A DNA stretch of 39,530 bases from Nitrospira sp. (GTDB taxonomy: Bacteria > Nitrospirota > Nitrospiria > Nitrospirales > Nitrospiraceae): positions 1-39,530 of the forward strand of contig JANDJJ010000010.1 in the NCBI GenBank assembly GCA_024330945.1, given 5' to 3'. The notes beneath the pieces were generated by a model that was not told the DNA's origin, did not search any database, and was given only the letters and a program-made list of their open reading frames with translations. Each line of letters opens with the position of its first letter. Position 1 is the first letter of the stretch. Both the position numbers and the translations under genes were made by a program. Positions 1,053-9,383 of the stretch are shown piece after piece.

Positions 1053-3338
1053 CTAGAGTTCTGATAAGACTTGTTGAGCTTCTTGAGCACCAGGGAAGTT
1101 TCGATCGAGTTTCAAGGCGAGGAGAAGTGACTTTTTTGCTCCGTCTTTGTCGCCGTTTTTATATTGGGCCATGCCCAAGTGATAGTGAACGACCGGATTC
1201 GTTGGCAGTTTTTCAGCGGCTTCCTTCAACAGGCTCACAGCCAGTACATAGGCGTTTTTCTTGTAATACAGCCATCCGATTGTATCCGCGATAGCCGGAT
1301 CATTCGGCTGTTGCTCGCGGGCCGTTTGGGCGTAGTTCAGTGCTACGTCGAGGTTGCCCCCCTGTTCGACCAGGAGCCAGGCCAAATTGTTGGCCGCCGG
1401 CGCGAATTTTTGGTTGAGAGAGAGAATTTTTTCATAACGAGCCTTCGCTTTCTCATATTCGCGTTTTTGTTCGTGGATGACGCCTAACATCATGTGGGCC
1501 TGAATGGCTTGTGGTTCCTTGTCAACGACTGCCTGATATTCAGCGGCAGCCTGATCCATTTTCTCAGTTTGATAATAGAGTTGCCCAAGGTTCATGTAAG
1601 CTGCAAGAAGGGAGTTATCGAGTTCGATCGCCTTCTTAAAAGACCGTTCCGCCTGGTCCATGTCTCGTGTCGCCAGCCACAGCTCGCCGAGCAAGTTTTC
1701 GTGCTGGGCGCTCTGGGGCGCTGCGGCCATCTGACGGAGCAGCCGTTCACGCCCCTCCAGCGGTTTCCCCTGCGCGACTTTGATTGCCGCAATTTGGACG
1801 ATCGGCTCAATGGCGCTCGGTTTGAGCGACAAGGCTTCCTCGAAATAGGCGATGGCCTTTGAATCGTTCTTCTCGGCTCTGGCGACAAGACCGAGGCTGT
1901 AGGGGACCAGGGCTTCCTTTGGCAAGGCTTTGCCGATCGCTTCGTACACCTGTTTGCTTTTGGCAAAATCACCCTTGCGAAGATACACGTCTCCTGCGAG
2001 AAACGCCGCTTGCATGTTCCGTGGGTTCAATTGCACAGCCGCTTGGGCATGCTCCAACGCCAAGTCAAACGACCCTTCGTTGAGAAAGAGTTCGGCCAAG
2101 GCCGTGCGGGCTTCAGGCATGGCGGGGTTCAGCTTGACGGCTTGAGTCAAGGCTCCTCGCGCCTGAGCGATCTGGCGGTTTTTTAGATGGGCGATGCCGA
2201 GAAAATAATGGGCCGGCGCAAATTGCGTTTCTTCATTCGCGAGTGTTTGGAACAGCGTGATGGCTTCTTCAACCTTTCCTCTGACCAGGGACAGTCTAGC
2301 GTTGAAAAACCGGCCGGAGAGATCGCGAGCATTTTTCGCAAGAATGGATTTGATTTGCGCTTCCGCCTCATCCGCTTTGCCGAGATCAAGCAGCAGGGCG
2401 ATCAATTTGTCGCGGGCGATAGTCGATGAAGGAGTCACTCGCAAGGCCTGCCGATAGCCGGCCAAGGCCTTGTCCTGCATACCCAGCGAGGTAAAGAAAT
2501 CGCCCAAATGCAGGTGCGGCCGTTCGTCCTGAGGATAGGCCGTAGCCCACTGCTGTAAGACGGCCTCTGCATCGGTCGGCTTGTTGGTCAGTTGGTAGAG
2601 ATTGGCAAGTCTCAAGCGAGCCGGTTCGTTGTCCGGGGCAATGCCGATCACCCGCTTGAACATGGTCTCCGCCTGATCCGGTTTGCCGGTCGAAAGCTGA
2701 AGATCTCCGATCGCCAACATGAGGTCAAGGGAGCTCGGATTGGCCGTGAGCCCCTGGCGGAGGATATCTTCCGCGGCGGCTCGGTCGTTGGCAAAAAAGT
2801 AGGCCCGTGAAAGTTCGATGTACACACCAGGGTCGGAAGGATCGAGGGCCAGCAGTTTTTTGAGCTCCACGATTCCTTCTTGAAAGCGTCTTTCATTGAT
2901 CAGGCTGCGGCTGCGGATCGCCAGTGCAGCACGATCTTGGGGAGCGGACGCCAAGATGAGATCGGCTTGCTCCCTGGCTTTCGCCGGTTCGTTCCCCACC
3001 AAATACAGCTCGCCGATTTTGAGTCGGGCATCGCGGTTGTCTTTGTTGAGTTCAAGCGTCCGGCTCAATTCCGCGAAGGCCTTTTGCAGGTTGGTGATGC
3101 CGCCAAGCTTCAAGTGAATGAGTGCCATTTGATAGTAGGCGTCGGCATGGCTTGGATCGGCCTTGGTCACGCTCATGTACTCGATCAACGCCTCGTGAAG
3201 CTGACCTTTTTCCAGGAAACTCGCGGCCCGTTCGAGGTGCTTGGCCTTTTGGGCTTCCGGCGAGCCGGAGTTGCACCCCAGCACGACAAGCACAAGAACA
3301 AAGGAGAGTTTCCACAGAGCGCTCGTGCTTCTTATCAT
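1053..3338 (-). CDS. TPR-repeat lipoprotein, PEP-CTERM/exopolysaccharide (PrsT-like) type
   Basis: A 761-residue protein. The N-terminus is a lipoprotein signal: hydrophobic stretch followed by VVLGC, with Cys22 as the expected lipidation site and Asn at +2, which suggests outer-membrane retention facing the periplasm. The remainder is almost entirely tetratricopeptide repeats of about 34 residues. These show the alternating small/large pattern (for example A-Y-Y-Q-M-A and P-x-x-x-A-x-x-x-L-A) from about residue 30 to the C-terminus, roughly twenty units. Such repeats bind partner proteins. The architecture fits the TPR lipoproteins (PrsT) found in PEP-CTERM/exosortase loci, and the neighbouring PEP-CTERM pair supports this. 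A general TPR lipoprotein of polysaccharide export is the alternative. PrsT proteins are usually somewhat longer. Confidence 0.82.
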   Translation of the reverse strand: MIRSTSALWKLSFVLVLVVLGCNSGSPEAQKAKHLERAASFLEKGQLHEALIEYMSVTKADPSHADAYYQMALIHLKLGGITNLQKAFAELSRTLELNKDNRDARLKIGELYLVGNEPAKAREQADLILASAPQDRAALAIRSRSLINERRFQEGIVELKKLLALDPSDPGVYIELSRAYFFANDRAAAEDILRQGLTANPSSLDLMLAIGDLQLSTGKPDQAETMFKRVIGIAPDNEPARLRLANLYQLTNKPTDAEAVLQQWATAYPQDERPHLHLGDFFTSLGMQDKALAGYRQALRVTPSSTIARDKLIALLLDLGKADEAEAQIKSILAKNARDLSGRFFNARLSLVRGKVEEAITLFQTLANEETQFAPAHYFLGIAHLKNRQIAQARGALTQAVKLNPAMPEARTALAELFLNEGSFDLALEHAQAAVQLNPRNMQAAFLAGDVYLRKGDFAKSKQVYEAIGKALPKEALVPYSLGLVARAEKNDSKAIAYFEEALSLKPSAIEPIVQIAAIKVAQGKPLEGRERLLRQMAAAPQSAQHENLLGELWLATRDMDQAERSFKKAIELDNSLLAAYMNLGQLYYQTEKMDQAAAEYQAVVDKEPQAIQAHMMLGVIHEQKREYEKAKARYEKILSLNQKFAPAANNLAWLLVEQGGNLDVALNYAQTAREQQPNDPAIADTIGWLYYKKNAYVLAVSLLKEAAEKLPTNPVVHYHLGMAQYKNGDKDGAKKSLLLALKLDRNFPGAQEAQQVLSEL

Positions 3339-6311: not shown

Positions 6312-7610
6312 ATGGAATCAAACGCTTCGAGCCAATCTTCCGAATCAATCCGACAATCGGCTTCTGAATACATCGTGAAGCTGGTTGCCAAGGCCAGGCA
6401 GGCGTCTGGAAAGCTGGCATCTTTATCGACATCCGTTAAGAATCAGGCGTTGCATGCCATGGCGGAGGCGCTTGAAGCCAACACGGAGGAAGTGCTGGAG
6501 GCCAATAATCGCGATCTTGACGCCTTTGGGAATGCCCCGGACAAAAAAGCCATGGCGGACCGTCTGCGCCTGACACCGCAACGGGTTGCAGAGATGGCCG
6601 GCGGGATCCGCGAAGTGGCAAAACTGCCAGATCCGGTCGGCGTGATGCCGTCGATGTGGATGCGGCCCAATGGGATGAAGGTGGGCCGGGTGCGCGTGCC
6701 AATCGGCGTGATTGGCATCATCTATGAGTCGCGCCCCAACGTCACGGCGGATTCCGCGGCTCTCTGCCTGAAATCGGGAAACGTCTGTATTCTTCGGGGA
6801 GGAAGCGAAGCGATCCATTCCAATACGGTGATTGCCGCCATCCTCTCCGAAGCGGCCGAAAAATTCGGGGTGCCGTCAGGCGCCATTACCTTTATAGACC
6901 GGCCCGATCGCGATTTGGTCCCGGTGTTGCTCAAGCAGGATCGTTTTATCGATTTGATCATTCCCCGAGGGGGTGAATCCCTCATGCGGTTGATTGCCGA
7001 ACACTCGACGATCCCGGTGATCAAACATGACGCAGGGGTGTGCCATATCTATGTCGATGTGTCGGCGGACATTGAGATGGCTCATGCGATCTGTGTCAAT
7101 GCCAAAGTGCAGCGCCCCTCGACGTGTAACGCCATGGAGACGTTACTGGTCCATCAGACCGTGGCCCGGACATTGTTGCCGAAGCTTGTCCACAGTCTGC
7201 TGTCGGCCAAAGTCGAAATTCGCGGATGCCCTAAGACCTGCCAATTGATTCCAGAGGCGAAGCCAGCAAGCGACCAGGACTACGGAAAAGAATTCCTTGA
7301 TCTGGTCTTGGCGGTCAAGGTGGTCAAAAATATCGACGAAGCCATGGACCACATTGCACGGTACGGATCGCGGCATACGGAAGCGATCGTCACCTCGGAT
7401 TACGGACGGGCGATGCGTTTTCTCAAAGAAGTCGATGCCAGTGCAGTGCTGGTCAACGCCTCCACCCGCTTGAACGACGGTTACCAATTCGGTCTCGGGG
7501 CTGAGATCGGGATCAGCACGTCCCGTATCCATGCCAGGGGCCCGATGGGCCTGGAAGAATTGACCTGCTTCAAATTTATTGTGCTGGGGAGCGGCCAACT
7601 CCGCACGTGA
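6312..7610 (+). CDS. proA: Glutamate-5-semialdehyde dehydrogenase (gamma-glutamyl phosphate reductase)
   Basis: A 432-residue protein of the usual ProA length. It reduces gamma-glutamyl phosphate with NADPH to glutamate-5-semialdehyde, the second step of proline synthesis, in the cytoplasm. Diagnostic stretches are PIGVIGIIYESRPNVT, the LKSGNVCILRGGSEA cofactor region, IPRGGESL, the catalytic-cysteine motif QRPSTCNAMETLL (Cys272) and the terminal GPMGLEELT. The partner proB (glutamate 5-kinase) is not in the window. A sigma70-like promoter lies at 6231-6259. The next gene starts on the base after the proA stop, so the two are probably co-transcribed and translationally linked. Confidence 0.97.
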   Translation: MESNASSQSSESIRQSASEYIVKLVAKARQASGKLASLSTSVKNQALHAMAEALEANTEEVLEANNRDLDAFGNAPDKKAMADRLRLTPQRVAEMAGGIREVAKLPDPVGVMPSMWMRPNGMKVGRVRVPIGVIGIIYESRPNVTADSAALCLKSGNVCILRGGSEAIHSNTVIAAILSEAAEKFGVPSGAITFIDRPDRDLVPVLLKQDRFIDLIIPRGGESLMRLIAEHSTIPVIKHDAGVCHIYVDVSADIEMAHAICVNAKVQRPSTCNAMETLLVHQTVARTLLPKLVHSLLSAKVEIRGCPKTCQLIPEAKPASDQDYGKEFLDLVLAVKVVKNIDEAMDHIARYGSRHTEAIVTSDYGRAMRFLKEVDASAVLVNASTRLNDGYQFGLGAEIGISTSRIHARGPMGLEELTCFKFIVLGSGQLRT

Positions 7611-9383
7611 ATGTCGTCCGATCCGGTCTCCTTCGCTCTGCGGAATCCCGATCATCTCTGCTTTCCATCCACTCGTTGGCTTGCCGAGCACTTTGAAACC
7701 GGCGGAGGGCGGGTGGCTGTTCGCCCGACGGGGCACCTGGTTTTTTACCGCCCCGACGGCCGGCGGTTTTTGGCGACGGATCCTGCCGGTCATCCGCTGC
7801 ATGAGTGCGAATGGCGGTCGAACGATGACGGAACGGTCGCGCTCGCAAGGGCCCGTATTCGGCTTGATTGGGGACGATGGATCGGACTTCTGCCCGGCGG
7901 CTTGGTGAATGAAACGAGCCTGGATCTGGCTCGAAAGCCCGGTTGGGAACGGCTTGTGCCGGATGATTTGCGCGCCATGGCGGCCCGCACGCTGGGGGTG
8001 TCGATCGAGGAAATTCGGGCATTTTATGATGATGACGATCTCAGCATCGACGCGCGCGGGATTGCGACCATCCGCCATAGAAAAGACGCCCTTTACGTGT
8101 TGGACGATGGGACGTTTGCATCGGCTCGCTTCATGGCCTGTATGGGAGCCATGCACTGGGACCGGATAGATTTTCTTCCCGTCGTTGAGCTCTTTCAGTC
8201 GCTGTTGCCGGGAACCGGCTCGGCGGTCTTTGAATTGATTCGTGGGCTCTACGATGATCAGAACGAAGGGGCGCACAGCCCTCGTCCGCTCCGTTACCGG
8301 GGCATCCCGACCTATCCGTCCAAAGCGGCCTGGCTCTTGTTCTCCAGATTTTTCGTGCCTCATGCGCCGATGGGAGCGGATGCGGCCGCTATTTTTATGG
8401 ATCAAGTTCGTGCCCATGAGATTATGTGGACTCCGGCGCCGGACCCCCCTGTCCGATATTTTTACGACCGGCCGCCGTTGTGTTTGACGGTGCAGGGGAC
8501 AAGTATCGAGAAAGCCACGCTGGCGGATGATGAATCGGGATTATCCTACGTGAATCCGGCAACGCATCGTTTTGCGCCGTGGGATCGAACCGTCACGGCG
8601 CAGAATGGGATCATTGAAATACGTGATCGACAAGATCACAGGCAGATTGCAGTCGGCATCCCAGGAGTTGCTTTATTGTCGTCGGAGGGCACACCGCCTC
8701 TCAGTCCGGTTGATTGGCGGACCGTCTTTCATCCGGTAATGCCGGCGATTGATCCGAACAAGGCATTCGGATCGGTTCCGTTATATCCACAAGATGAAAC
8801 TCTGATCGAGGAAATTGCCGCCCAACCCTTTGTGGCCGATTATCTGCAAGACTTGACGGAGCAGGACCGCGAGATTGCAAAAATTGTCGCTCTAGCCGAT
8901 CGCATCTTGGTTGATAACGGTGATGCCGTCATCGCCGTCTGTCTTCCGTTTGATCGGCCGCGTGATCTGGTCGCCCTCGTCCGCCGACCGGCGTTTGCCA
9001 TGAAACAAGCCCAGCGGATGTGGGCCCTTTGCGCGGAACTCGGACGTTGGGATTGGTTGCGCCGGGCAAGATTTTGCACGGAAGGCGAGCCAACTCCTGT
9101 TGGATGGCAGGCCGATCTCGCCTATGTGTGGCTGCCCTACGAGGACTTCGAAGAGCCGGTCGCTCTGGAGTGCAGCACGGCGTTGTTGCTTCATCGTGTA
9201 AGACGGGGAGGCCATGCGTTTGTCACGGGGCCGGCATGCTACGGGACATGGCTGGCACGAGCCGGTTTTCAGATTTTGTGGGAAGAGGCCGTGGAGCGGT
9301 TACCCACCTTTGCCGTGCACAAGACCATTCTCCCGAAAGCGACGTTGCATCCAGGGCTGACGCTTTTTCAAGTGCACGGCTGA
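7611..9383 (+). CDS. Hypothetical protein of 590 residues, directly abutting proA; family not recognised
   Basis: I do not recognise this protein. Its ATG (7611-7613) follows the proA TGA (7608-7610) with no spacer, which suggests reinitiation-coupled translation. There is no signal peptide and no transmembrane helix, so it should be cytoplasmic. It is rich in Trp, Pro, Arg and Asp and has an acidic patch (AFYDDDDLSID, about 138-148). Residues from about 220 have a conserved-looking block (LRYRGIPTYPSKAAWLLFSR). The last ~60 residues read like the tail of a Rossmann-type transferase (HRVRRGGHAFVTGPACYG, then ARAGFQILWEE), but no SAM-binding glycine loop is evident upstream, so I do not call a methyltransferase. 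Codon usage and GC resemble the neighbours, so recent transfer is unlikely. The long uninterrupted frame with domain-like composition supports a real gene. Confidence 0.85.
   Translation: MSSDPVSFALRNPDHLCFPSTRWLAEHFETGGGRVAVRPTGHLVFYRPDGRRFLATDPAGHPLHECEWRSNDDGTVALARARIRLDWGRWIGLLPGGLVNETSLDLARKPGWERLVPDDLRAMAARTLGVSIEEIRAFYDDDDLSIDARGIATIRHRKDALYVLDDGTFASARFMACMGAMHWDRIDFLPVVELFQSLLPGTGSAVFELIRGLYDDQNEGAHSPRPLRYRGIPTYPSKAAWLLFSRFFVPHAPMGADAAAIFMDQVRAHEIMWTPAPDPPVRYFYDRPPLCLTVQGTSIEKATLADDESGLSYVNPATHRFAPWDRTVTAQNGIIEIRDRQDHRQIAVGIPGVALLSSEGTPPLSPVDWRTVFHPVMPAIDPNKAFGSVPLYPQDETLIEEIAAQPFVADYLQDLTEQDREIAKIVALADRILVDNGDAVIAVCLPFDRPRDLVALVRRPAFAMKQAQRMWALCAELGRWDWLRRARFCTEGEPTPVGWQADLAYVWLPYEDFEEPVALECSTALLLHRVRRGGHAFVTGPACYGTWLARAGFQILWEEAVERLPTFAVHKTILPKATLHPGLTLFQVHG

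Follow-up and report, generated by a model that had tools for sequence, protein, structure and literature searches.

Gene content at the locus

The window, meaning the whole stretch of 39,530 nucleotides of Nitrospira sp. DNA that was analysed, lies on contig G000:C11 of a genome of 2.52 Mb in 205 contigs, and carries directly behind proA a gene for a 590-residue protein of an unnamed Nitrospirales family, for which we use the working name X590. The features of this locus are:

6312..7610, + strand: proA, encoding ProA1, glutamate-5-semialdehyde dehydrogenase (NF001221, E 7.1e-181; TIGR00407, E 1.5e-146)
7608..7613, + strand: TGA-ATG junction, with the proA stop codon at 7608-7610, the X590 start codon at 7611-7613 and zero bases between
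7611..9383, + strand: X590 coding sequence, 590 aa, ATG start, with homologues and a dN/dS of ~0.2
7611..8735, + strand: N-terminal region of X590 (residues 1-375), rich in beta-strands, without a trusted match to a solved fold
8151..8360, + strand: most conserved core of X590 (residues 181-250), with 31/70 positions invariant and a mean pairwise identity of 0.77 among 23 diverse members
8742..9380, + strand: predicted class I methyltransferase fold of X590 (residues 378-590), VIA Z up to 13.6, GxGxG missing
7143..8417, - strand: open reading frame of 424 aa overlapping proA and X590, probably spurious (single Pfam match at E 0.29, none in NCBIfam)

The first-pass annotation had described an intact reading frame starting directly after the proA stop codon and encoding an unrecognised protein, and both descriptions are borne out, as the ATG abuts the TGA and X590 matched no Pfam or NCBIfam family. 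Searches against Pfam, NCBIfam, PADLOC and PDB sequences gave nothing convincing, and no clear match to a known family was found; KDM5B (E 0.59) and ToxA (E 1.4, residues 475-564) were matched by profile only weakly, and both were set aside. Inspection by eye showed no long hydrophobic stretch in X590. The downstream neighbours in the window encode alanine racemase and ribosome recycling factor, both on the opposite strand. Elsewhere in the window, positions 1053-3338 (- strand) encode a 761-residue protein with many tetratricopeptide repeats.

Distribution and conservation of X590

Homologues of X590 were found in 128 of 395 genomes sampled across the phylum, representing 26 of 169 genera and three families of the same order (f1, f2 and f3, see below for their probable names), with none of the 395 genomes containing X590 outside this order; the suggestion that the protein is lineage-specific is therefore supported. 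None of the X590 matches listed for this search has internal stops. When 345 genomes were searched with a profile, 110 gave a match, and these too all belong to the order. Family f4 lacked X590 in both sets (0/4 among near relatives, 0/3 among the 395 genomes), and the ten of 59 near relatives without a homologue consisted of four from g1, four from f4 and two from f2 (G044 and G053), the other 49 having one. A scan of named genomes identified 178 loci encoding an X590 relative, and the best 80 of these were Nitrospira or Nitrospirota records, with the exception of one labelled uncultured Nitrosospira; the closest relatives among these 80 were Nitrospira MAGs, with up to 93% protein identity. 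No X590 relatives were present in viral contigs or plasmids. Four genomes gave an X590 profile match at residues 190-215 (E 0.005-0.007), but at 26 residues these matches were considered too short; by eye they resemble NAD-binding epimerase-type proteins sharing GSGSxxFELIRGL.

Comparison with two close relatives gave dN/dS values of 0.196 and 0.205, and X590 is a real gene under purifying selection.

Domain anatomy of X590

The AlphaFold2 model of X590, based on 58 sequences, has a mean pLDDT of 90.7 and a pTM of 0.90. The transferase-like tail proposed from the sequence corresponds to residues 378-590, for which a class I methyltransferase fold is predicted with confidence: VIA comparison gave 980 of 1000 chains with Z ≥ 8, the best being KMT9 (9fke; Z 13.6, rmsd 2.9 over 167 residues), with N6AMT1 (6k0x), NodS (3ofk) and BezA (7fbh) as further matches. 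X590 differs from class I SAM-dependent methyltransferases in its fusion to the 375-residue N-terminal region, and in the absence of the glycine-rich motif I (GxGxG) expected after strand 1. We searched region 428-450 for this motif and found it in 0/23 and 0/58 aligned sequences, with even GxG present in only 1/23 and 2/58; the family reads roughly [V/I]LI[D/H][N/G][F/G]DA at this position. Furthermore, positions 456-458, at the end of strand 2, have no acidic residue among their five commonest residues, and together these features indicate that the usual SAM site of X590 has been lost. The altered loop is itself conserved, with Asp/Glu438 in 23/23 and Asp in 58/58 sequences, and Cys444 in 17/23 and 58/58, and X590 may bind SAM in a non-standard manner despite the absence of GxGxG. 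Pfam searches with the 23 members gave weak methyltransferase matches in a few, of which PF13489 was matched by 2/23 (best E 0.0014).

Modelled alone, residues 1-374 form strands plus helices with a pLDDT of 88.4. With Foldseek, neither PDB nor BFVD contained a match to this region at E ≤ 0.001, which does not prove a new fold. VIA matches, mostly to beta-sheet proteins (Teneurin, CPAP, TarM/GtfA, OspA), were not trusted; the best had a Z of 5.8 over 76 residues, and there was little coverage past residue ~180.

A metallo-beta-lactamase-fold partner adjacent to X590 in family f2

In family f2, X590 is directly followed on the same strand by a gene for a metallo-beta-lactamase-fold protein (hereafter the partner) in 5/5 loci with room for it. 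The 539-residue partner of G041 (L060) starts 126 bp after X590 and that of G035 (L061) 31 bp after it; the two genes are also adjacent in G038 (L172), where both are broken into frames, and adjacent on the same strand in G051 (L222) and G049 (L221), the partner of the latter being truncated by the contig end. In the sixth f2 locus (G047, L223), X590 itself is truncated at the contig end. The genome of the window also encodes the partner, on another contig than X590:

G000:C124:1406-3028: partner, 540-residue metallo-beta-lactamase-fold protein, 65% identical to the f2 protein

The two genes lie apart in the 12 f1 and f3 partner loci that were read. One f1 genome, G192, contains a normal X590 near proA (L058) and a second X590 (L059) that is divergently oriented at 50 bp from a second partner copy. 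In trees built from 23 sequences of X590 and 15 of the partner, the f2 rows cluster in both, and the second X590 of G192 clusters with f2 (support 88/99), so it may stem from the same event as the f2 adjacency; the second partner forms a single long branch of unsure placement. Family f1 does not form one group in either tree drawing, and the trees do not prove a shared history. The f2 adjacency may represent one ancestral event, and the pairing of X590 with the partner is supported by gene context. The publications listed in literature searches included none on this pair.

Three further observations concern the surroundings of these genes. In 12/12 f1 and f3 loci the partner is preceded on its own strand, at no more than ~0.5 kb, by a VOC/glyoxalase gene, which was not found in the four f2 or second-copy loci tested. 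Genes for a Crp-type regulator and a fatty acid desaturase are located downstream of the second partner copy in L059 (G192:C19), and downstream of the G041 pair, on the other strand, two radical SAM genes that match B12-binding domains stand side by side (L060:8587-12436).

The partner was detected in 132 of the 395 genomes, and a hand tally gave 120 genomes with both genes, 8 with only X590, 12 with only the partner and 255 with neither; outside families f1-f3 neither gene was found. Within the 140 genomes of these families, X590 was present in 128 and the partner in 132. In 10 of the 12 genomes with only the partner, the sole ProA found was a 42-49% identical paralogue and not the X590-linked ProA1; of the other two, G306 has ProA1 and G391 a partial ProA1. 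A gene flanking X590 in G113 was also not found in G259, which lacks X590, and had only a 43% match in G325. The absence of X590 from these 12 genomes is likely to reflect missing contigs, and may alternatively be true loss.

The partner resembles the diiron oxygenase CmlA

Profile comparison of the partner with the PDB gave CmlA as best match (E 1.2e-12), followed by the diiron monooxygenase 8a90 (E 6.1e-11), over approximately residues 213-366. The residues H266, H268, D270, H271, E337 and D363 (HxHxDH, Glu and Asp) have aligned counterparts in CmlA and occur without exception in 15/15 partner sequences; we take the corresponding CmlA residues to be its iron ligands. It is thus the partner, and not X590, that shares a metallo-beta-lactamase domain and these aligned residues with CmlA and 8a90, which makes it a candidate diiron oxygenase, although it might instead hydrolyse its substrate and use a different metal. 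By sequence, the N-terminal domain of the partner does not match those of the two proteins, and its N-terminal 215 residues had no PDB match by profile. A further difference is that no nonribosomal peptide synthetase (NRPS) condensation domain was found in the genome of the window. A condensation domain was found in 2/5 genomes (G021 and G113, but not G000, G041 or G039), and carrier-protein domains were found in 8/8. The available text on CmlA and FrsH describes their substrates as amino acids tethered to NRPS thiolation domains (PMC7794379).

No partner relatives were detected in viral contigs. A plasmid collection contained two distant ones, on the Streptomyces plasmids NZ_CP033582.1 and NZ_CP109155.1, with only 27.8% and 29.2% identity. 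One of them, a 510-aa protein aligned with the partner profile over 292 columns (E 6.6e-19), has 8a90 and CmlA as its own best matches and is encoded beside genes for a lanthionine synthetase C, a GrrM-type radical SAM protein and a lantibiotic dehydratase; the other, aligned over 179 columns, is encoded beside YcaO and DUF692 genes. By analogy, these two peptide-modification clusters point to a peptide or protein as possible substrate of the partner. The hypothetical protein encoded just upstream of the 510-aa protein shows no resemblance to X590.

The putative mode of working has a parallel in MbnB-MbnC, likewise described as an iron-dependent enzyme with a second protein (PMC8888699, PMC10214503, available text). 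The likeness meant here is one of mode of working. MbnB belongs to DUF692, and according to the available part of PMC8788703, one of the methanobactin rings does not require MbnC.

Linkage of X590 to proA in related genomes

The gap between proA and X590, with the leftmost start codon as reference, was determined in three sets of loci: 49 from the genome search (set A), 80 named loci overlapping with these (set B), and 20 selected for diversity (set C). In set A, proA was present in 47/49 loci, always ≤250 bp upstream on the same strand and with zero gap in 45; of the exceptions, L030 lacks proA despite room and L013 showed none. Set B gave a similar result (76/80, all within 250 bp, 61 with zero gap, and the remaining four without room), and in set C proA was present in 16/20 loci, within 250 bp in 14 and with zero gap in 5. 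Linkage was hence retained in most relatives examined, rather than lost in all of them. No proA was found near X590 in L051, L059, L060 and L061 despite room, and the linkage is not family-wide. In two f3 loci proA is located ~2.7 kb from X590, with a subtilase gene between them in one.

We read the proA surroundings of family f2 in one genome, G041 (L217), where proA1 sits with obg, a nadD-like gene and rsfS; by eye, the surroundings of proA in the f4 genome G037 (L218) resemble these. Family f4 has proA and lacks X590 in 3/3 genomes. Since proA of G041 has this other neighbourhood and X590 is located beside the CmlA-like protein, the proA link looks secondary. It is most simply explained as derived, with X590 joining proA in a common ancestor of f1 and f3. 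The tight link to proline synthesis that was noted initially exists in most f1 loci, but is not supported as the clue to function, as f2 places X590 beside the CmlA-like protein.

Further features of these neighbourhoods were recorded. In 12/42 (set A) and 23/70 (set B) loci with room, the gene directly after X590 encodes a protein of 230 residues that matches no Pfam or NCBIfam family (L082:7822-8514 and homologues); it is not found behind X590 in the window, where the alanine racemase gene follows on the other strand. A second ProA paralogue (ProA2), 44-48% identical to ProA of the window, was found in 8/8 f1 and f3 genomes and 0/2 f2 genomes searched. In L214 (G000:C199), L215 and L216, ProA2 is followed by a 416-480-residue protein with a GCGxGI loop in all three, which in L214 and L215 gives matches to methyltransferase families of Pfam; BLASTP detected no relationship between this methyltransferase and X590 (E 1.6). 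In G039 (L216:4500-10567), ProA2 adjoins an apparent rpsB-tsf-pyrH-frr-alr cluster (by eye), and ProA1-X590 of the window adjoins alr and frr.

Possible relation to nitrite oxidation

Nitrite oxidisers and complete ammonia oxidisers are both found among the Nitrospirales, and for many genes that characterise the nitrite-oxidising members no function is known; as far as the available text of the source goes, nitrite oxidoreductase occurs in Nitrospiraceae, UBA8639 and NS-4 and not in UBA2166, and 140 genes are conserved in most nitrite-oxidising genomes (PMC12342949). We infer that f1 is Nitrospiraceae and f4 UBA2166, with f2 and f3 being NS-4 and UBA8639 in either order. As a control of distribution, an NxrA-like query (E ≤ 1e-150) matched 116 of the 140 f1-f3 genomes and 0/3 f4 genomes, and beyond the order it matched 16; among the matches listed there was one from outside the order, at 43% identity. 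The distribution of X590 and its partner follows the nitrite oxidoreductase pattern of the families, but this pattern is that of one clade and a single event, and is therefore not independent evidence for a link with nitrite oxidation. The pair adjoins a divergent NxrA-like gene in G041 (L060, 651-4154) and G049 (L221, truncated by the contig end), both of one f2 genus, and no NxrA-like frame was seen in L061, L172, L222 and L223. It is conceivable, and in our estimation rather improbable, that X590 and the CmlA-like partner constitute an order-wide, chromosomal system for oxidative protein or peptide maturation tied to nitrite oxidation itself, whose target might for example belong to the nitrite oxidoreductase pathway, with two components of which the pseudo-methyltransferase would be the recruiting subunit.

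Proposed role of X590 and alternative explanations

The probable role of X590 is alongside an iron-oxygenase-like enzyme and not in proline synthesis. Our preferred explanation, to which we assign a tentative probability of about 0.4, is that X590 belongs to a CmlA-like oxidative tailoring system of the Nitrospirales, in which it would bind or recruit the substrate as a non-methylating partner subunit. The catalytic member would be the 540-residue partner, which retains the residues aligned with the CmlA metal site and would activate O2 and oxidise the substrate, presumably by diiron chemistry and in a complex with X590. The conserved N-terminal region of X590 may hold or present this substrate, which could be a peptide, a protein or a carrier-bound acyl group, with the degenerate methyltransferase domain serving as a binding platform, and the contact with proA, gained in the ancestor of f1 and f3, would mostly provide shared expression.

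The co-occurrence of the two genes might alternatively reflect shared ancestry only, with X590 being a Nitrospirales core protein of unrelated function and the f2 contact accidental. Both genes are near-universal in one clade and lie apart in f1 and f3, and co-distribution within one clade is weak evidence because 140 genes are typical of nitrite-oxidising genomes, such a pattern being common to many genes (PMC12342949, available text). We nevertheless consider this explanation unlikely, while taking it more seriously than any other alternative, as the pair is adjacent in every f2 locus with room and the second copies in G192 are also paired, in another orientation.

Unlikely as well is that X590 itself methylates a substrate, selected by its N-terminal region, by means of an unusual SAM site, and so provides the step preceding or following that of the CmlA-like enzyme in one pathway. 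This would agree with the well-predicted fold, the weak PF13489 matches and the conservation of Asp/Glu438 and Cys444 in the altered loop, but not with the missing GxGxG and acidic residue, nor with the methyltransferase domain being the less conserved half of X590 (mean pairwise identity of 0.39 for residues 376-590 among the 23 diverse members, versus 0.52).

That X590 regulates or assists proline synthesis by acting on ProA or the product of ProA is what the frequent zero-gap junction with proA in sets A and B would suggest, yet X590 of f2 is located elsewhere and proA of G041 keeps another neighbourhood, f4 has proA without X590, and the two f3 loci tolerate a distance of ~2.7 kb and, in one, an intervening subtilase gene, making such a role very doubtful. 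That X590 is a spurious reading frame behind proA, as might be considered given the many long overlapping open reading frames in all frames of the window, is refuted by the order-wide conservation, the invariant core positions and the low dN/dS.

For an unnamed family typical of nitrite-oxidising Nitrospirales, these results provide a domain layout, the loss of a cofactor motif and a specific enzyme as putative partner, which makes its function testable. If the pair does work together, it would extend CmlA-like oxygenases to genomes in which no NRPS condensation domain was found, and would provide a case of a degenerate methyltransferase functioning as a partner subunit.
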